The notes below the pieces were generated by a model. That model worked only from the letters and a program-made list of their open reading frames with translations. It searched no databases and was not told where the DNA came from. From NCBI RefSeq assembly GCF_022482905.1, contig NZ_JAKVOI010000001.1, positions 1,923,958 to 1,987,957 on the forward strand: a stretch of 64,000 bases of DNA, written 5' to 3'. A program made the translations under genes and the position numbers. Below are positions 12,468 through 22,312 of the stretch, piece after piece (position 1 is the stretch's first letter; every line of letters begins with the position of its first letter). Source of the DNA: Clostridium sp. (GTDB lineage Bacteria > Bacillota > Clostridia > Clostridiales > Clostridiaceae).

Positions 12468-14417
12468 CTATACATATTCTCTCATTCTTTTATATCTGTC
12501 TACAATTGTGGCAATGGCCCGGGCAGCACGTTTTAATTCATCCTTGTTGTGAGTTGACATCAAAGCTACACGAAGCCTTGCGCACCCTTTCTTAACAGTT
12601 GGATAACGAATTGCCGAAATATAATAACCTTGTTCAAATAATTCCCTTGATATCTCCATGGCACTTTTTTCATCACCTATAATAATAGGAATAATAGCAG
12701 TCTCAGAATCTGCTTCAATTCCTGCTTCTCTTAAACATCTGCAAAAATATTGAATATTTCCCTGTAATGCCTGTACTCTCTGTGGCTCATCCATGATTAA
12801 TTCAATGGATTTTATTGAAGCCGCCATAACAGCTGGAGATAACGACGTGGAAAATATAAAACTGCGGGATTTATTTTTTAGATATTCAATCAATTCTTGT
12901 TTCCCACAAACAAATCCTCCCTCGCTGCCAATGGCCTTGCTTAAAGTACCCATTATAATGTCAGGATTTCGCGTCATATGAAAATATTCCATTGTTCCAC
13001 GGCCATTTTCTCCAATTACTCCTGTGGAATGTGCTTCATCAATCATAGAAAATAATCCATGCTTGTTCGCAATTTCTACCAATTGCGGCAAATTCACAAT
13101 ATCTCCATCCATGCTAAATACGGCATCACTTACCACTAAACCCTTACTACATGGATTTTGTTTAATTTTATTCTCCAAGTCATTCATATCATTGTGGCGA
13201 TACACTACAATTTTTGCCTTACTTAAACGACATCCATCAATTATACTGGCATGATTCAACTCATCACTAAAAATAACATCATCTTTTGAACACAGCGCAG
13301 AAATTATCCCTATATTTGCCATATACCCAGTATTATAAACTAAAGCTGCCTCTGTTCCTTTAAATACCGACAGAAGCTCCTCCAATTGATTGTGTAAGTT
13401 TATAGTTCCAGTAGTTAGTCTGGAGCCGCCAGAACCAGCACCATATTTTTCCATAGCTTTTAGTGAATAAGCTTTCACCTGTGAATCATTAGACATATCC
13501 AGGTAGTTGTTAGAGGCCATCATAATCATTTCTTTTCCCTGGAAAGTGACATGTGCACTTTGTGCTGACTTAATCTCATTCATAGTTCGGTACAAATTAT
13601 TATATTTTAAATTATCCAATGCCTTATCTATAAAATTCCATTTATTTTTTGTACTTTCTTCCGTTTTATACGGCTTATTTAATATGGAAGATACATTTTT
13701 AACCAATACCTTCCGTTTTTCTATATAATCAATGCAATCTTGAACTTTGGAACAATCTCCCCTATAAAGAAAAATCCGTCCCCCCTCCTCACTTCCCATT
13801 TCCTTCAATTTGGTAATGCGCATATATCCATTTTCCTTTGATGCCACATAACCTGTTACATAATCAGGATCATCGGAAATGCAGATTTCACCAATAATAT
13901 TAGGCGCATATGCTACTTTAGTAGCTAATACAATTGCTTCATTGTAGTGATCCTTTGTATCCTTTTTTTTCATAACAGAATTAACTTCATCCATATAGGT
14001 AGCTCGAATTCCTCTGTCTTTATCAGGTTCCAATCTTTCTAATGTATCTACGTTTAATAACATAGCACCCCGCATATTATAAGTATCCTTTAATTTTTCT
14101 AAAACAGCAGAAGCATTAGTAATGCCTATTTTTTCTAACATAGCTAATAACTTTTGAATGCCCTCCTGGTAACTGCTTACATTTACCGTAGTAACAGGCA
14201 ATGCATCAAGAAATAAAATATCTTCTCGATTTACTTTTTCGATTTTCATATTTATAAAATCTGCTTTGCCTTTTGAGTGATATAATGCCCTAGTCAATAA
14301 AGCTTTAGAATATATATAAAGACTGTCTTCTACTGTTATTTTTTCTGCACCTGAAATATGTTTCTCTATTCCATCTTGACTTTTACTTGCCCTCATTTTT
14401 AAACTATATAAATCCAT
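12468..14417 (-). CDS. bioWF: Bifunctional BioW-BioF: 6-carboxyhexanoate-CoA ligase / 8-amino-7-oxononanoate synthase
   Basis: A 649-residue fusion for two successive steps of biotin synthesis. Residues about 1-245 are BioW (pimelate + CoA + ATP to pimeloyl-CoA): YSLKMRASKS, HISGAEKITVEDSL, and SDDPDYVTGYVASKENGYMR. Residues about 265-640 are BioF, the PLP enzyme joining pimeloyl-CoA with alanine: MMASNNYLDMS, KYGAGSGGSRLTTG, NHASIIDG, DEAHSTGVIG, and the PLP lysine at about 494 in GTLSKAIGSEGG. ATG at 14417 is chosen over GTG at 14435 because AAGGTG precedes it and BioW proteins begin this way. A BirA operator covers its promoter (14482-14536). No bioA, bioD or bioB genes are seen nearby. 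The two activities in one chain imply direct channelling of pimeloyl-CoA. Confidence 0.9.
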   Translation of the reverse strand: MDLYSLKMRASKSQDGIEKHISGAEKITVEDSLYIYSKALLTRALYHSKGKADFINMKIEKVNREDILFLDALPVTTVNVSSYQEGIQKLLAMLEKIGITNASAVLEKLKDTYNMRGAMLLNVDTLERLEPDKDRGIRATYMDEVNSVMKKKDTKDHYNEAIVLATKVAYAPNIIGEICISDDPDYVTGYVASKENGYMRITKLKEMGSEEGGRIFLYRGDCSKVQDCIDYIEKRKVLVKNVSSILNKPYKTEESTKNKWNFIDKALDNLKYNNLYRTMNEIKSAQSAHVTFQGKEMIMMASNNYLDMSNDSQVKAYSLKAMEKYGAGSGGSRLTTGTINLHNQLEELLSVFKGTEAALVYNTGYMANIGIISALCSKDDVIFSDELNHASIIDGCRLSKAKIVVYRHNDMNDLENKIKQNPCSKGLVVSDAVFSMDGDIVNLPQLVEIANKHGLFSMIDEAHSTGVIGENGRGTMEYFHMTRNPDIIMGTLSKAIGSEGGFVCGKQELIEYLKNKSRSFIFSTSLSPAVMAASIKSIELIMDEPQRVQALQGNIQYFCRCLREAGIEADSETAIIPIIIGDEKSAMEISRELFEQGYYISAIRYPTVKKGCARLRVALMSTHNKDELKRAARAIATIVDRYKRMREYV

Positions 14418-14481
14418 TGAATTCACCTTATCCACATTAGTATTTAAATTTAAATATTTGACACTGCATAAGAATATAATT

Positions 14482-14536: not shown

Positions 14537-15027
14537 TTGGAGCCTCATTTTGTTCCAATGTTTTCTTAAACTCTTTCAAACGGCGTTTAATATTGTGGTT
14601 ATCCACTAGAAAATTTGGTTTATTGCAAAAATTTGTGTTAAGGCAGAAAAGGTATGGTAGAATAAAATTATAAAAGTTACAATTTTAGATGTAAGTATAT
14701 TTAAATTAAATATAAATAAAGGGGAAACACAGATGCCTAGCTATCATTTTTTGAGCTTTAGGAAATCGATTACAAACTATTATTTATATTTAGTGAAACA
14801 TACTGGGATAAGTATTTGCAATTTCCTGAAGCAATTAAAGAAATGAAATCAACGAAGAAAATTTAAAAGCAACTAATGCAGATACTTCAAGAATTACATC
14901 CTTGGTAGTATCTTTTACAAATACCTCTCTGAAAGAACAGAGTCATATATGGATGATCTGCTGCCGCTAGCGGTGACGATGAATGACGGCTAAAAAAGGG
15001 TTGCTGAATGGAATGGAGGAATATACC
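14537..15027. other. Intergenic region with one weak small frame
   Basis: No family match was recognised. A 37-codon plus-strand frame at 14733-14846 (MPSYHFLSFRKSITNYYLYL onward) has AAAGGGG eight bases before its ATG and is therefore possibly translated, but is unlike anything known to me. The remaining sequence has frames with frequent stops and may be decayed coding DNA. Confidence 0.35.
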
Positions 15028-16137
15028 ATGAAATATGAAAATGCCGGCCAGATGAATTTTCTCTTGGAAATATCAGAACGTCAAATCTCAGCACGTGAAT
15101 TCTTCAGTAACGTTCTGCTGGATTCTCTGGATAGAAATTTCGGCTTGGGAAAGGTACTGATGTTGTTCTTTGATACGCATGGAAAATTTCTTTCATGGAT
15201 AAACTCGAACGGTATTCTGGTCGACTGTAAAGAACATCCATACAGGAAATTTATTGCGAACGATATAATCAGGCATATAGTTTATGAGGATGCGGTTCGT
15301 GACCATTTGACTTATTTTAATGTCATCTCTAGACTGTATAAATCCACAGACATAATCAATCCCGTTGACTATGAGCACTCTGCATATGTTCGCTTTCTAG
15401 AGGAAAACTTTCATGCTCACTACAGTGTGACTATGGCTTTTGGCATCAATGCCTACATCCAAATTATTTTTTTCAAGTGTGTGGAGAAAGGTGATTTTAC
15501 AGATGAAGAAATTGAGGCACTGAATAAAATATATATTTATGTAGCCAATTCCTATAAAAATTTCAAAAAGTATGAACAGGCAAAGATAGTATCAAACATT
15601 CAGAGCGAAATCATTTCCTCAGGTGAAAAAGCTTATCTTGTGACTGATGACTTCATGCACATCATGAGCTATAACAAGACGGCGCAGAATTATTTAAAAG
15701 ATATTCTGGGACCGTCCATCGACAAACGGATTAGCAGCATAAGCTCTTGCAGCTGGCTGCCTTTTCTGCTGGGAGGTGAGGAAGATAACATTACGGAAAA
15801 TCGTGTTTATACACGTGTTATCAGAAATTATATTTTTAAAATATATACCTATGATCAGCACTATTCGCACGGAATCATAGACAGATATCACTGGATTACT
15901 ATTTCCAGGAAGGAGCAGGGAAAGATTTCGCGCTATTCAGGGACAAAGCTACCTCTGACACAGGCAGAACAGAGAGTGGCGGAGCTTATGTACAACGGCC
16001 TGACCTACAAGGTCATCGCCGATGAACTTGTGGTTAGCTACCATACCGTTAAAAAGCATGTACAAAATATATATACCAAATGTGGAGTAAAAAGTCGTTT
16101 TGAATTATATAAATTGCTTGATAATAAAGAACAATAA
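15028..16137 (+). CDS. LuxR-type transcriptional regulator with GAF/PAS-like sensor region
   Basis: A 369-residue regulator. The C-terminus is a LuxR/FixJ helix-turn-helix: LPLTQAEQRVAELMYNGLTY, then KVIADELVVSYHTVKKHVQNIYTKCGVKSRFELYKL. Residues about 1-180 look like a GAF-type sensor and about 190-295 like a PAS-type fold (EKAYLVTDDFMHIMSYNKTAQNYL). ATG at 15028 is chosen because GGAGG lies eight bases upstream; a longer frame from 14983 lacks this. It stands before the glycyl radical locus on the same strand, separated by 650 bp, so it is the likely activator of that locus in response to a small molecule; this is inferred from position. Confidence 0.8.
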   Translation: MKYENAGQMNFLLEISERQISAREFFSNVLLDSLDRNFGLGKVLMLFFDTHGKFLSWINSNGILVDCKEHPYRKFIANDIIRHIVYEDAVRDHLTYFNVISRLYKSTDIINPVDYEHSAYVRFLEENFHAHYSVTMAFGINAYIQIIFFKCVEKGDFTDEEIEALNKIYIYVANSYKNFKKYEQAKIVSNIQSEIISSGEKAYLVTDDFMHIMSYNKTAQNYLKDILGPSIDKRISSISSCSWLPFLLGGEEDNITENRVYTRVIRNYIFKIYTYDQHYSHGIIDRYHWITISRKEQGKISRYSGTKLPLTQAEQRVAELMYNGLTYKVIADELVVSYHTVKKHVQNIYTKCGVKSRFELYKLLDNKEQ

Positions 16138-16169
16138 TTGCTATATCCGAGCTACTCTTACAATACAAA

Positions 16170-16187
16170 ATAGGGAATATTCCCTAT
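16170..16187. promoter_or_regulatory. 18-bp perfect palindrome after the luxR-type gene
   Basis: atagggaatattccctat is exactly self-complementary and lies 33 bp past the regulator stop. Its size suits a dimeric helix-turn-helix site, or it may be a weak terminator stem. It precedes the glycyl radical operon by about 600 bp. Confidence 0.4.
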
Positions 16188-16341
16188 ATAAAATAGTACG
16201 GATGCCCTATTCTTTTTTAATATTGGTTTTGATAAGCTTTTCATAGAATAGTTGTTCCGGAGCAATTATTTTAATAGCCTGCTCTATTTGCTTTTGGCCA
16301 AAGAAACAGAGTTCAGATATTAAACAGAAAGGAAGATTCAA

Positions 16342-16699
16342 GTGAATTCTAAAGCAAAAGCTTACTGGGCTATCTGGGTTGGCATCTGGACAGTAACTTA
16401 TCTCCTTTTTTATCTTGTCAGTCCGTTAGCAAAATACGGAATTATCTGGTGTAGCTTTATAGCCAATTCGCTTTCTTGCGGCTCCTTTACAATCACTTGC
16501 TGTGGGAAGCAAACTGATGAGATAATTATGTATTGTATCGGCTACCAAACCATCAAAGGGGATCAGTGGATTCCGCCCGAAGCTCAACTTTGGTCCACCG
16601 ATCGTTCTTCCCGGACTTTGTGTAGATCCTGTTTCCTATAAAGCAAATATTGCTCGTCTTCAGAAGATGAGAGAAGAGTACAATGCAAAGATGCGGTAG
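16342..16699 (+). pseudogene. Decayed gene upstream of the glycyl radical operon
   Basis: A frame from 16342 encodes MNSKAKAYWAIWVGIWTVTY followed by LLFYLVSPLAKYGIIWCSFIA, a convincing pair of membrane segments with AAGGAAG upstream, then dissolves into unlikely sequence. Another frame from about 16575 to the stop at 16699 encodes GPPIVLPGLCVDPVSYKANI and a charged Arg/Lys tail ending EYNAKMR, typical of a cytoplasmic C-terminus. The pieces look like the two ends of a deleted membrane protein, or of two proteins. A lost transporter for the glycyl radical pathway substrate is possible but not shown. Confidence 0.45.
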
Positions 16700-16786
16700 G
16701 AAGAATGACTTATTTTTTGAAAATGAATATCTAACTATATCAATATAAGGAAATAGCAGTTACTGTTATTTGAGGGAGGGGATCAA

Positions 16787-17737
16787 TTGTCACAGCAAGG
16801 AATTATATTCAATATTCAGCGCTTTACAATCCATGATGGACCGGGTATACGTACAGAGTTGTTTTTGAAAGGATGCCCATTAAGATGTGAATGGTGCAGC
16901 AATCCCGAGAGCTGGATGGCTTATATACAACCGGGTGTATATAAAACCAAATGTATTTCACGTAAAAAATGTGACTTGTGTGAGGAGGCTTGTCCTGAGA
17001 AGGACATACTGAATTTTACCCGCGGTAAACTCACTTCTATAAATCGTAGTAAATGTACGAATTGCCTTGCCTGTTATAATGCCTGTCCTTCAGACGCAAT
17101 CAAGCAATGGGGTAAGTCTATGTCGGTTGAAGAGTGCATGAAGGAGATACTCAAGGATAAAGGATATTATGAACGTTCTGGAGGCGGTGTTACGGTTTCA
17201 GGTGGAGAACCTCTGCTTCAAAGTGACTTTGCCGCAGAACTTTTTAAGGTTTGTAAAGACGAAGAAATCCAGACTTGCTGCGAATCTACTTTCTACGCTG
17301 ACTGGAAAGAAATCGAAAAGATTTTGCCTTACACGGATATTATAATTTCAGATATAAAACATATGGATACAAATATCCATAAAAAATATATCGGGGTGCA
17401 CAATGACAGGATTTTGGAAAATCTGAAGAGGCTGACAAGTGAAAAACGAGAGCTTATTTTACGAATTCCGATTATTCCAAATGTAAATGATAATATGGAT
17501 AATATGGAAGCCACGGCTGATTTTATCATCCATGAGCTCGGCAGTCGTGTCAGAACGCTGCAGCTTTTGAGCTTTATGCGTCTTGGTGAAGAGAAATATT
17601 GTTCATTGGGCATACCTTATAAAATGGAGGATGTGAAGGTCAACAGAAAATCATTTCAGAAGCATGTCAATGAGCTTGCAAATTATTTCAATAGTCGAGG
17701 CATCCACTGCCTGGTAGGCACGAAAGAAAAACAGTAA
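16787..17737 (+). CDS. Glycyl radical enzyme activating protein (radical SAM)
   Basis: A 316-residue activase that cleaves S-adenosylmethionine to place the glycyl radical on its partner enzyme. The radical SAM cluster motif is GCPLRCEWC (Cys 30, 34, 37), preceded by FTIHDGPGIRTE. Two ferredoxin-type 4Fe-4S motifs follow at Cys 56/62/65/69 and Cys 90/93/96/100, the insertion typical of activases for diol dehydratase and related enzymes rather than of the pyruvate formate-lyase activase. The SAM-binding segment VTVSGGEPLLQ is present. Start is TTG with GGGAGGGG just upstream. It leads an operon with the dehydrogenase (28-bp gap) and the glycyl radical enzyme. Confidence 0.92.
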   Translation: MSQQGIIFNIQRFTIHDGPGIRTELFLKGCPLRCEWCSNPESWMAYIQPGVYKTKCISRKKCDLCEEACPEKDILNFTRGKLTSINRSKCTNCLACYNACPSDAIKQWGKSMSVEECMKEILKDKGYYERSGGGVTVSGGEPLLQSDFAAELFKVCKDEEIQTCCESTFYADWKEIEKILPYTDIIISDIKHMDTNIHKKYIGVHNDRILENLKRLTSEKRELILRIPIIPNVNDNMDNMEATADFIIHELGSRVRTLQLLSFMRLGEEKYCSLGIPYKMEDVKVNRKSFQKHVNELANYFNSRGIHCLVGTKEKQ

Positions 17738-17765
17738 AACAATTTTGTAAATAGGAGAGAGTCAT

Positions 17766-18881
17766 ATGAAACTGTTGCAGGTAGTACCTGAAATTTATAA
17801 GTTTGACAGCACTAAGGAATTTGTACAATTTTTCAATATTGGAAAAGGTGACCTGATATTGACCAATGAGTTCTTATACAAGCCATTTCTGGAGAAATAT
17901 GAAAAAGGAGCATATGTTGTATTTCAGGAGAAATATGGTAATGGAGAGCCATCTGATGAAATGATAAACGAAATAATCAGGAATATAGGAGATAAGAAAT
18001 ATGACAGGGTAATTGCTTTAGGTGGAGGTACGGTTATAGATATATCCAAATTATTGGGACTCAAGTATACAAAGGATTCCTTGGATTTATTTGATGGAAA
18101 AGTCCCTCTGGTAAAAGATAAAAAGTTGATTATAGTACCTACAACTTGTGGAACAGGATCGGAAGTTACAAATGTATCTGTTGCCGAACTTAAATCAAAA
18201 CACACTAAAAAGGGAATTGCAGGAGAACAGTTATATGCAGATTATGCGGTACTCATACCTGAAGTTGTAAAAGGTCTGCCTTATAAATTTTTTGTGACTA
18301 GTTCTGTAGATGCTCTTATTCATGCATCTGAATCCTATTTGTCTCCAAAAGCTACTCCTTATACAGAGATATTTAGTGTAGAAGCTATAAAATTGATATT
18401 GAATGGATACATTAGTATATTGGAAAAAGGACAGGATTATAGAACAAAGATAATTGAGGATTTTGTTCTTGGAAGCAATTATGCTGGTATTGCTTTTGGA
18501 AATGCAGGTTGTGCAGCTGTGCACGCACTTTCCTATCCAATAGGAGGCAACTATCATGTACCTCATGGAGAAGCCAACTATCTTTTCTTCACTGAAATAT
18601 TCAAAACTTATATAAAGAAGAATCCTGAGGGTAAAATCAAAAAGCTGAATAATCTATTATCAGACATATTACAATGTAATGAAGATAGTGTATATGAAGA
18701 ATTGGCAAAGGTTTTGGATAAATTATTACCGAGGAAGCCTCTTAGAGAATATGGAATGAAAGAAGAGGAAATCGAAATTTTTACTGATGAAGTTATAAAA
18801 AGGCAGCAGAGACTACTTGTAAATAGTTATGAGCCTTTTTCAAGACAGGATATAGTAGGGACGTATAAAAAATTATATTAG
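17766..18881 (+). CDS. Iron-dependent alcohol dehydrogenase, 4-hydroxybutyrate dehydrogenase-like
   Basis: A 371-residue group III (iron) alcohol dehydrogenase. NAD binding is shown by ALGGGTVIDISKLLGLKY and PTTCGTGSEVTNVSVAE; the metal ligands are Asp182 and His186 in SSVDALIHASE, His253, and His267 in YHVPHGEAN. From memory its length and many segments (GKGDLILTNEFLYKPFLEKY, REYGMKEEEIE, NYEPFSR-like end) closely match the 371-residue 4-hydroxybutyrate dehydrogenase of Clostridium kluyveri, which interconverts 4-hydroxybutyrate and succinate semialdehyde. Here it lies between a glycyl radical activase and the enzyme, so it may act on the aldehyde made or used by that pathway; sulfoacetaldehyde reductases belong to the same broad family. 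Substrate is not proven. Confidence 0.85.
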   Translation: MKLLQVVPEIYKFDSTKEFVQFFNIGKGDLILTNEFLYKPFLEKYEKGAYVVFQEKYGNGEPSDEMINEIIRNIGDKKYDRVIALGGGTVIDISKLLGLKYTKDSLDLFDGKVPLVKDKKLIIVPTTCGTGSEVTNVSVAELKSKHTKKGIAGEQLYADYAVLIPEVVKGLPYKFFVTSSVDALIHASESYLSPKATPYTEIFSVEAIKLILNGYISILEKGQDYRTKIIEDFVLGSNYAGIAFGNAGCAAVHALSYPIGGNYHVPHGEANYLFFTEIFKTYIKKNPEGKIKKLNNLLSDILQCNEDSVYEELAKVLDKLLPRKPLREYGMKEEEIEIFTDEVIKRQQRLLVNSYEPFSRQDIVGTYKKLY

Positions 18882-18892
18882 GAGGGATTTCA

Positions 18893-21412
18893 ATGAGTTT
18901 CAATAACACAAATGCATGTGGGACAGAGCCTTTTGATCATACTTACAGTCTGGGTTATCAGGTTCATCATAAAGACTGGTCTCCATTTCCGCGCGTAAAT
19001 TATCTTAGACAGAAATTTTTGGACAGACCATATGAGATTGATGTTGAGAGATTAAGATTAGTCACAGAGGCTTATAAGAAACATGAGGTATGTCCACGCA
19101 AGCTTCAGTGCGCATATGCCTTTGAGAATATCCTGCTGAATACAAAGCTGTACATCCATGAGGAGGATCTGATCCTGGGCGAGATAGCTGCACCGGCCAA
19201 GGCATCACCGATATATCCGGAGTTCTCTGTAAACTGGATCATTGATGAAATACTGCATTCCCCATTTGAGGAGCGTGCACATGATCAGTTCTATATAAGA
19301 AACGATGAAGAAAGAAAAGAAATCGTAGAGCTTTGCAGATATTGGGAAGGCAAGACAGTTGATGATCTTATCAATTCAAGACTTGAAGAAGATCAGTTCA
19401 AGGGTTCCGAAGCAGGCAAGAAGATATTCCAAACAAATCTTTATCATTATGCAGGTACCGGCCATTTGGCTATAGATTATGCAAAGCTGATGAAAGTCGG
19501 CTACAACGGCCTGATTGAAAATGCCAAGGCAGCTTTTGGAAAGCTGAGCAAGGAGGACCCGGAATATGCTGATAAGAGAGATTTCTATATGGCAATGATT
19601 ATTATGCATGAAGCTGCTAAAAAGTATATTGAACGTTATGCAAAGCTGTCTGAAGAGTATGCCGCAGAAGAAAAGAATCCTAAGAGAAAGAAAGAGCTTG
19701 AAACCATGGCAATTAACTGCCATGAGATAGCAGGAGGTCCCGCAAACACTTTCTGGCAGGCGCTGCAGTTATTCAATTTCGCAACGACACTCATTCAGAT
19801 TGAAAGTAATGGACATTCAATTTCCTACGGCCGTATGGATCAGTGGCTGTATCCATACTATGAGGCTGATATGAAAAGTGGTACTCTTGCCAAGGAATTT
19901 GCTCTTGAGCTTATCGAAGTTGAATATGTTAAGATGAACAACCCAACCAAGCTGAAAGATAAAGGTACTGTAGTAGTACGTAATGGCCGTGGTTTCGGTG
20001 GCGAGAGCCTTACTATCGGCGGAGTAGATCGTGATGGCAATGATGCCACTAACGATCTGACTATGCTGATGTTGGAAGGTTCTGCACATACACGTATGAT
20101 GAATCCATGGGTTTGTGTACGCATGCATGAAAATACACCTTATGAATTAAAGGTTAAGACGGCTGAGTGTATCCGCGCAGGTTACGGACATCCGAAAATT
20201 TTTAATGATGGTCCAGCTATCAAAGGTATGATGAGAAAGGGAATGACTCTTGAGGAAGCAAGAGACTATTGTGTTGTAGGCTGTGTAGAAATTGATCTTC
20301 CTGGTAAAGAATATGGTTGGCATGATGCTGCTTATGTGAATACAGCGAAGATGATGGAAATGGTACTTAATGGCGGACGTTGCCTGGATTGTGGTCCTCA
20401 TTGTTCAAGATGGGAAAAATGTGGAGCTCTTGGAAAACACCTTAGCCCCGATACCGGTAGTCTGAATACTTATAAGAGTTTCGATGAGGTTCTTGAGAGT
20501 GTTGACAAGCAGTTTGCTTACTGGACCGATCAGATGTGCAGCAGTCTGAATATTATCGACAATGCACATAGAGCACTCAAGCCTATTCCATATGTTTCTG
20601 CATTTTATGAGGATTGTATTGAGGCCGGTAAGGATCTGACAGAAGGTGGAGCTAAGTATAATGGCACTGGACCGCAGGCCAGCGGCATAGCTACCTGTGC
20701 AGATACTCTGTCCACTATCAAGCAGCTTGTGTTCGATGAAAAGCGTTATACCGGTGCTGAACTACTTCAGGCAGTTAAGAACAATTGGAAAGGTCACGAA
20801 AAGATCCATGCTCTTGTAAACAGCTCAAAGGTTCATCACTATGGTAATGATGACGATTATGCAGATGAACTGTTCAAGTACATGTTCGAGTGCTACTGCA
20901 GACATATTAGAGGAAGAAAAAATCCTAGAGGCGGTGAATTTAGTCCGGGAGTATACTCTGTAAATGCAAACGTAGGTATGGGCTTGAATACCAACGCTTC
21001 CATTGATGGCCGTAAGGCAGGCGAAGCTATATCTGATAACATGGGACCGGTTCATACTGATGGTGGTTCTCACGATATTTACGGACCCACTGCTATTGTA
21101 AATTCCCTGACTAAGGTTGATCACAGTCTTGCGACCAACGGTACTCTTATGAACCTTAAATTCCCGCAAGAAGCTGTTGCAGGTATAGAAGGGAGAGACA
21201 ATCTCGTAAGTTTTATTGATGAGTATATTGCTAAGCAGGCAATGCATGTTCAGTTCAATGTTATGAGTGCTGCAACGATGAGAGCTGCACAGAAGAAGCC
21301 AGAAGATTACAAAGATATGCTTGTACGTGTCGCTGGATACAGTGCGTACTTTGTAGAACTTGGCAAACCATTACAGAAGGATTTGATTCAGCGTACAGAG
21401 CTTCATTTTTAA
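18893..21412 (+). CDS. Glycyl radical enzyme of the diol dehydratase-like group
   Basis: An 839-residue PFL-fold enzyme. The glycyl radical site is Gly815 in RVAGYSAYFVEL and the thiyl residue is Cys464 in VVGCVEI, with Glu466 two residues on. Also present are His191 in TGHLAIDY, His308-Ser309 in ESNGHSISYGR and Asp478 in GWHDAAY; matching His, Ser, Cys, Glu and Asp residues form the active site of the B12-independent glycerol and propanediol dehydratases. A single Cys (not Cys-Cys) excludes pyruvate formate-lyase. The motif after GCVE (IDLPGKEYGW) differs from textbook glycerol dehydratase (PQ) so the substrate may be another hydroxylated compound, and an isethionate-lyase-type or other C-X lyase remains possible. 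Start has AGGAGG. No microcompartment genes accompany it. Confidence 0.85.
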   Translation: MSFNNTNACGTEPFDHTYSLGYQVHHKDWSPFPRVNYLRQKFLDRPYEIDVERLRLVTEAYKKHEVCPRKLQCAYAFENILLNTKLYIHEEDLILGEIAAPAKASPIYPEFSVNWIIDEILHSPFEERAHDQFYIRNDEERKEIVELCRYWEGKTVDDLINSRLEEDQFKGSEAGKKIFQTNLYHYAGTGHLAIDYAKLMKVGYNGLIENAKAAFGKLSKEDPEYADKRDFYMAMIIMHEAAKKYIERYAKLSEEYAAEEKNPKRKKELETMAINCHEIAGGPANTFWQALQLFNFATTLIQIESNGHSISYGRMDQWLYPYYEADMKSGTLAKEFALELIEVEYVKMNNPTKLKDKGTVVVRNGRGFGGESLTIGGVDRDGNDATNDLTMLMLEGSAHTRMMNPWVCVRMHENTPYELKVKTAECIRAGYGHPKIFNDGPAIKGMMRKGMTLEEARDYCVVGCVEIDLPGKEYGWHDAAYVNTAKMMEMVLNGGRCLDCGPHCSRWEKCGALGKHLSPDTGSLNTYKSFDEVLESVDKQFAYWTDQMCSSLNIIDNAHRALKPIPYVSAFYEDCIEAGKDLTEGGAKYNGTGPQASGIATCADTLSTIKQLVFDEKRYTGAELLQAVKNNWKGHEKIHALVNSSKVHHYGNDDDYADELFKYMFECYCRHIRGRKNPRGGEFSPGVYSVNANVGMGLNTNASIDGRKAGEAISDNMGPVHTDGGSHDIYGPTAIVNSLTKVDHSLATNGTLMNLKFPQEAVAGIEGRDNLVSFIDEYIAKQAMHVQFNVMSAATMRAAQKKPEDYKDMLVRVAGYSAYFVELGKPLQKDLIQRTELHF

Positions 21413-21821: not shown

Positions 21822-22259
21822 TTATTTAGCTTCTACTTCATGAAAATGTACTTCATATAAGTTTTTTCCGTGAATCTTTACTTCTGCTTCTGCAACCTTC
21901 ATAAATATATCCAGACTAAGTTTCTTAACTTTATCACTTAAACCACTCGAATTTATTATTTTCTTTATATCATTTAAATTTCTATGATGATGTCCATGCG
22001 TATGGATATGACCTTCGTGGCTATGTTCATATAGATCTTGTTCTGGAATATGTATATTATCTTTTAACATAACATCTACCCTAGTTCCTGTTATTCCAAG
22101 TTTCATAGATTTCTCAACTTTTATTTCATATTCAAAATTTAGATTAAGCTTTGAAAGTTGTTGGATTAAGTATTCTTCAGGAACTCCCAAATCTATTAAT
22201 GCCGCCAAGTTCATATCACCGCTTATTCCACAGAAACAATCATAATATAAAATCTTCAT
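21822..22259 (-). pseudogene. larC: 3'-truncated larC (nickel-pincer cofactor synthesis)
   Basis: From ATG at 22259 the frame encodes MKILYYDCFCGISGDMNLAA and LIDLGVPEEYL, continues through a His-rich stretch (HSHEGHIHTHGHHHRN) and reaches VHFHEVEAK before a stop. LarC proteins continue after HFHEVGA with VDSIVDIVG and about 250 more residues, so the gene is cut at residue 146. LarC is the CTP-dependent nickel insertase completing the nickel-pincer nucleotide of lactate racemase; no larA, larB or larE lies nearby. In Lactobacillus larC is read by a frameshift, but no larC2 sequence follows here, so it is a true truncation. Confidence 0.8.
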
Positions 22260-22312
22260 GTTTATAGCTTCTCTCCTTCTCATCATTTCAATTTCAGATG
22301 TTATTTTATTTA

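Follow-up and report, generated by a model that had tools for sequence, protein, structure and literature searches.

A predicted 3-sulfopropanediol fermentation operon of a Clostridium species in which a 4-hydroxybutyrate-dehydrogenase-type enzyme seems to replace HpfD

A four-gene locus (positions 15028..21412) was analysed in a 64,000-nucleotide stretch of the genome of a Clostridium sp. (contig NZ_JAKVOI010000001.1, positions 1,923,958 to 1,987,957; hereafter the window). It encodes a LuxR-type regulator, a radical S-adenosylmethionine (SAM) activating enzyme, an iron-type alcohol dehydrogenase and a glycyl radical enzyme, and it is probably an operon for the fermentation of (2S)-3-sulfopropanediol (DHPS), termed hpf, in which the second enzyme has been replaced non-orthologously by a copy of a 4-hydroxybutyrate dehydrogenase (4HBD)-type gene whose product would reduce 3-sulfopropionaldehyde. 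The initial annotation had described the same four genes; their frames were confirmed, and the Pfam assignments agreed. Its proposal that dehydration yields an aldehyde that is then reduced matches, as a prediction, the succession of HpfG (the DHPS dehydratase) and a reductase in the excerpts of PMC11489063. Its suggestion of an undescribed pathway was not borne out, because HpfG and HpfH (the activase of HpfG) pass curated cut-offs and that succession has been published. What it overlooked is that the dehydrogenase, as far as its sequence tells, is of another iron-type branch and stands in place of the published reductase HpfD, and the locus therefore seems to encode a known pathway with a non-orthologous reductase.

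All four frames are open and intact on the same strand (+). Between the regulator and hpfH lie 649 bases, between hpfH and the dehydrogenase gene 28, and between the latter and hpfG 11, and the two short gaps suggest that the last three genes are co-transcribed.

The glycyl radical enzyme, its activase and the regulator

The glycyl radical enzyme (18893..21412, +; Pfam PFL-like and Gly_radical) scored 1734.2 bits against the NCBIfam model of HpfG, the DHPS dehydratase (NF048009; cut-off 1000); the other glycyl radical equivalogs listed scored under their own cut-offs, and the general subfamily model TIGR01774 was also passed. Its identity was 89% to the protein of Hungatella effluvii, 87% to that of H. 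hathewayi, and 84% to those of Klebsiella spallanzanii and an Escherichia. On these matches the enzyme is an HpfG-type DHPS dehydratase, a known kind, in agreement with the dehydratase type assigned at the outset. It clusters with a characterised enzyme of known substrate, which tells against the novelty first proposed for it; the matching activity is predicted. HpfG was reportedly described by Liu in 2020, and HpfD by An in 2021.

Other identities were considered and rejected. Curated models or solved members for glycerol/propanediol dehydratase, choline lyase, hydroxyproline dehydratase, isethionate lyase, arylacetate decarboxylases and pyruvate formate-lyase (PFL) scored far under HpfG. The earlier exclusion of a propanediol, glycerol, choline or PFL locus stands. 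Among the solved relatives, glycerol dehydratase (1r8w) gave 617 bits, and none of the structure matches listed could be recognised from its name as an HpfG. The DHPS sulfolyase HpsG and the isethionate lyase IslA are also sulfonate-acting glycyl radical enzymes, but the window enzyme reached only 499 bits with the HpsG model (cut-off 1000) and 332 bits with the isethionate sulfite-lyase structure 7kq3.

A scan of genome contigs with HpfG confirmed 92 relatives. Of these, 79 distinct loci with 60–89% identity were kept, Enterococcus and Vibrio included; L076 and L081, in which no full radical-enzyme frame was called, were left out, so that 77 other loci were counted. In a 77-row alignment, which contained the window and omitted rows shorter than 750 residues, the GCVE motif (463–466) and the glycyl radical loop RVAGYSAYF (812–820) were invariant (77/77). 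The unusual sequence after GCVE, to which the initial annotation had drawn attention, is real, but it is a trait of the family: the 21 residues from GCVE onward were identical in 6 of the 77 rows, with the window and H. hathewayi among these.

HpfH (16787..17737, +, TTG start; Pfam Radical_SAM), the radical SAM activating enzyme of HpfG, scored 585.9 bits against NF048008 (cut-off 500) and was 84% identical to its H. hathewayi counterpart, consistent with a dedicated activase. The LuxR-type regulator (15028..16137, +) carries a Pfam GerE domain at its C-terminus and no other known domain; its longest open frame is 14983–16137, and the start at 15028 agrees with the H. hathewayi relative. Its counterparts in the hpf loci of H. 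effluvii and H. hathewayi were 84% and 83% identical, respectively, and 32 of the 77 other loci had a related LuxR gene no more than 5.5 kb from hpfG, which supports its reading as a dedicated regulator. A literature search pairing LuxR with dihydroxypropanesulfonate or HpfG, whose coverage did not extend to the original HpfG and HpfD papers, returned no report with LuxR.

The dehydrogenase and its origin

The best solved relative of the dehydrogenase (17766..18881, +; Pfam Fe-ADH), a 4HBD-type iron alcohol dehydrogenase and the proposed 3-sulfopropionaldehyde reductase, was Cvir-Hbd2 (PDB 30sm) with 434 bits, the next one reaching 109. Its identity to H. hathewayi HpfD was 29% over 327 residues, indicating that the two are not orthologous, and a tree of 42 rows split them with support of 100/100, the tool flagging long branches, L070 among them. 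In this tree the dehydrogenase grouped with 4HBD-type sequences, including annotated 4HBDs downstream of aminotransferase genes in Ilyobacter and Selenomonas. The 4HBD-like character noticed initially is upheld by the 434 bits and the tree, the comparison being with Cvir-Hbd2 rather than with the C. kluyveri protein. The enzyme is thus placed in the clostridial 4HBD type, separate from HpfD, and its substrate activity is predicted.

The 77 other hpfG loci comprised 38 with HpfD (at least 50% identity to the H. hathewayi protein, within 5.5 kb), one with a 4HBD-type gene (L070, 47% identity, directly before hpfH) and 38 with neither, 22 of the last having full 5-kb flanks. Within the order, hpfG was over the cut-off in 4 of 225 genomes, the own genome included; the HpfG relatives in G193 and G210 (probably identical with L077 and L009), at 82–87% identity, keep the canonical HpfE-HpfD-DASS tail, and the locus of the congener G133 has the regulator and activase with neither the tail nor a dehydrogenase. 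The hpfG of G133 (L134:7931-10301, -) is split into pieces of 179 and 625 residues, by decay or an assembly error. In a small, hand-picked set of eight hpfG genomes searched at an expectation value (E) of 1e-60, H. hathewayi had HpfD and no 4HBD-type gene, and five (C. aminobutyricum, A. odorimutans, L016, L018 and L070) had 4HBD-type genes (47–59% identity) and no HpfD orthologue (best match 39% or none). Separately, a divergent HpfG branch (60–69% identity), mostly of Lachnospiraceae, had no HpfD nearby (L061-L064, L068-L074, L080 and L083); ABC-transporter-like genes were seen at several of its loci and an aldehyde dehydrogenase-like gene at five (L061, L063, L064, L070 and L080), which would suit oxidation to 3-sulfopropionate. 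Frames and clusters named here without a profile scan were assigned by reading the sequences.

The own genome holds two close relatives of the dehydrogenase, at 89% and 53% identity. The 89% paralogue (G000:C1:2254466-2255578) lies in an inositol cluster, amid IolD, IolE and IolG genes that each score over their cut-offs, and about 13–17 kb past it on the same strand are an HpaB-domain protein, a CoA-transferase-family gene and a permease. The HpaB-domain protein, read as a 4-hydroxybutyryl-CoA dehydratase, is 90% identical to a G120 protein near a 4HBD-type gene, and a dehydratase-like frame, seen in its N-terminus only, occurred near the 4HBD-type gene in four of the seven loci with frames listed (L166, L170, L172 and L173). 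The nearest congener genes (88% in G124, 85% in G135) both adjoin inositol genes. In the tree, the copies from the window, from the own inositol cluster and from G124 formed a trio (support 100/98) whose branching order is left open, and these relationships place the source of the dehydrogenase gene inside the genus. Comparison of the two own copies gave nonsynonymous (dN) and synonymous (dS) divergences of 0.066 and 1.05, indicating that the copy is old and constrained by purifying selection; clearly derived residues number nine in the window copy and twelve in the paralogue. The guanine-plus-cytosine (GC) content of the dehydrogenase gene (33.4%) is near that of the window (34.7%), and that of hpfG is higher (42.6%; hpfH 39.5%, luxR 37.7%), as would be the case if a native gene had been inserted into an acquired module. 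We read this as a regulator-activase-HpfG module that was probably acquired and then received a copy of a native 4HBD-type gene.

A permease family without a Pfam match (L182:8294-9685, -; 60% identity) adjoins the dehydratase and CoA-transferase genes of the own genome, and members of the family also follow HpfD in five hpf loci of marine type (L030, L053, L057, L059 and L085). The family is a possible carrier of 4-hydroxybutyrate as well as of the sulfonate analogue.

Proposed pathway and competing explanations

The regulator presumably responds to DHPS or a related signal and would switch on hpfH, the 4HBD copy and hpfG. HpfH would install the glycyl radical in HpfG, which would dehydrate DHPS to 3-sulfopropionaldehyde, and the 4HBD-type dehydrogenase, probably with NADH, would reduce this aldehyde to 3-hydroxypropanesulfonate, thereby disposing of electrons.

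3-Sulfopropionaldehyde is succinate semialdehyde with a sulfonate in place of the carboxylate, on the same chain. In C. necator, the enzymes that act on homotaurine and 3-sulfopropionaldehyde are homologous to those that degrade 4-aminobutyrate, and HpfX and HpfYZ were recognised by their homology to succinic semialdehyde dehydrogenase and succinyl-CoA synthetase, respectively (both in the excerpts of PMC11489063). A 4HBD reductase would complete this pattern. At about even chances, we extend this to the clostridial 4HBDs as a second, non-orthologous class of 3-sulfopropionaldehyde reductases, with DHPS fermentation repeatedly recruiting from succinate-semialdehyde metabolism, either by a gene copy in the operon, as in the window and, probably as a separate event, in L070, or in trans, for which Clostridium aminobutyricum and Anaerovorax odorimutans would be examples.

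Several observations weigh against the proposed replacement. The dehydrogenase scored under every NCBIfam equivalog cut-off; the only 4HBD model listed (NF058672, Cupriavidus-type) gave 106.5 bits against a cut-off of 500, although, to judge by its name, this model was made for a different branch. V. hannami and G133, of the eight picked genomes, had neither reductase (best HpfD matches 38% and 34%), and 4HBD-type genes occur widely in the family, at E 1e-100 in 47 of the 206 genomes searched, so that some chance co-occurrence with hpfG is to be expected. With only nine derived residues, the copy shows no sign of a changed substrate. Queries with the canonical exporter HpfE and the DASS transporter brought up no known hpf transporter in the own genome: HpfE gave no match in a search that had no positive control, and the best DASS match was at E 6e-5. 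As to the supply of DHPS, a putative sulfoquinovose isomerase from L031 (identity by reading), which would mark the extended sulfo-TAL pathway from sulfoquinovose to DHPS within one cell, had no match in the own genome; it was the one enzyme of such a supply queried, in a search with no positive control. The reduction of 3-sulfopropionaldehyde by this dehydrogenase is a step that we infer, as are the signal of the regulator and transport in the operon.

The small number of derived residues would also suit a division of labour in which HpfG acts on DHPS, the dehydrogenase of the operon has kept its role with 4-hydroxybutyrate or with aldehydes derived from inositol, and a different iron-type dehydrogenase of the cell reduces 3-sulfopropionaldehyde. 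Candidates are at hand, as 14 places in the own genome matched H. hathewayi HpfD at E 0.001, the best at 39% and none of them an HpfD orthologue. We consider this explanation rather unlikely, because the dehydrogenase gene sits tightly between hpfH and hpfG (gaps of 28 and 11 bases) and the hpf locus L070 also has a 4HBD-type gene. The same near-unchanged partner, so close to its paralogue in a carboxylate cluster, could instead mean that the radical enzyme itself has shifted to a carboxylate substrate giving succinate semialdehyde or a similar product, with the whole operon devoted to 4-hydroxybutyrate metabolism, which comes near the original idea of an undescribed pathway. This is very unlikely, given the 87% identity of HpfG to the H. 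hathewayi protein, the letter-identical 21-residue active-site stretch and the relatives of 82–87% identity (G193 and G210) that keep the canonical tail.

That the locus is a decaying, non-working remnant is about equally improbable. The failure to find HpfE and HpfD in the own genome, the broken hpfG frame of G133 and the rarity of hpfG in the order would agree with decay, but all window frames are open, and the dehydrogenase copy is constrained and represents an addition rather than a loss. In the window, no remnants of HpfE, HpfD, DASS or HpfXYZ were detected at E <0.05, save the match of HpfD to the 4HBD-type gene itself; the HpfX, HpfY and HpfZ representatives had been chosen by reading sequence clusters and were searched in the window only. 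A DHPS fermentation operon with a recruited 4HBD-type reductase remains the reading that we favour.

Neighbouring genes, known systems and meaning

About 410 bases from hpfG lies a 154-residue frame (21822-22286, -) that matches only positions 1–121 of 375 of the LarC (nickel insertion) model and looks truncated. On the other side, a single 655-residue frame (12468-14435, -) joins BioW (6-carboxyhexanoate-CoA ligase) to a Pfam aminotransferase class I/II domain, which we take to be BioF and hence a fused biotin-synthesis enzyme; BioW-BioF-type fusions are known. Promoter-like sites in the window (32 against 26.4 expected, standard deviation 5.5) were near expectation and terminator-like sites (8 against 4.1, standard deviation 1.9) somewhat high, and neither was used as evidence.

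The window locus shares orthologous HpfG and HpfH, and would share the dehydration-then-reduction logic, with the HpfG-HpfH-HpfD system of DHPS fermentation in Klebsiella oxytoca and Hungatella hathewayi (excerpts of PMC11489063, PMC12330013 and PMC12890257). In that system HpfD, the published second enzyme, reduces 3-sulfopropionaldehyde with NADH (excerpts of PMC11489063), and the excerpts of PMC12890257 give H. hathewayi as one source of HpfD. For HpfD of E. gilvus, the oxidation of 3-hydroxypropanesulfonate has a kcat of 15.3 per s and a Km of 4.97 mM (excerpts of PMC11489063). The window locus, by contrast, has no HpfD, HpfE or DASS transporter and carries a 4HBD-type dehydrogenase between hpfH and hpfG. 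HpfG and HpfH are also held in common with the bifurcated HpfXYZ pathway of Enterococcus gilvus (same excerpts of PMC11489063), but presumed HpfX, HpfY and HpfZ representatives were unmatched in the window. The clostridial 4HBDs (Cvir-Hbd2 and the annotated enzymes of Ilyobacter and Selenomonas) belong to the same iron-type branch, whereas the window gene lies in a glycyl radical sulfonate operon and not in an aminotransferase or inositol cluster. Among the matches listed in a literature search, which likewise did not cover the original HpfG and HpfD papers, no report joined 4-hydroxybutyrate dehydrogenase with sulfonate terms.

DHPS derives from the breakdown of plant and algal sulfolipid. 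Whether fermenters convert it to 3-hydroxypropanesulfonate matters for the formation of hydrogen sulfide, since this product could not be used by Bilophila wadsworthia (excerpts of PMC11489063). If 4HBD-type enzymes do reduce the aldehyde, surveys that require HpfD would undercount DHPS fermenters, and the locus would illustrate how carboxylate metabolism is re-used for sulfonates.

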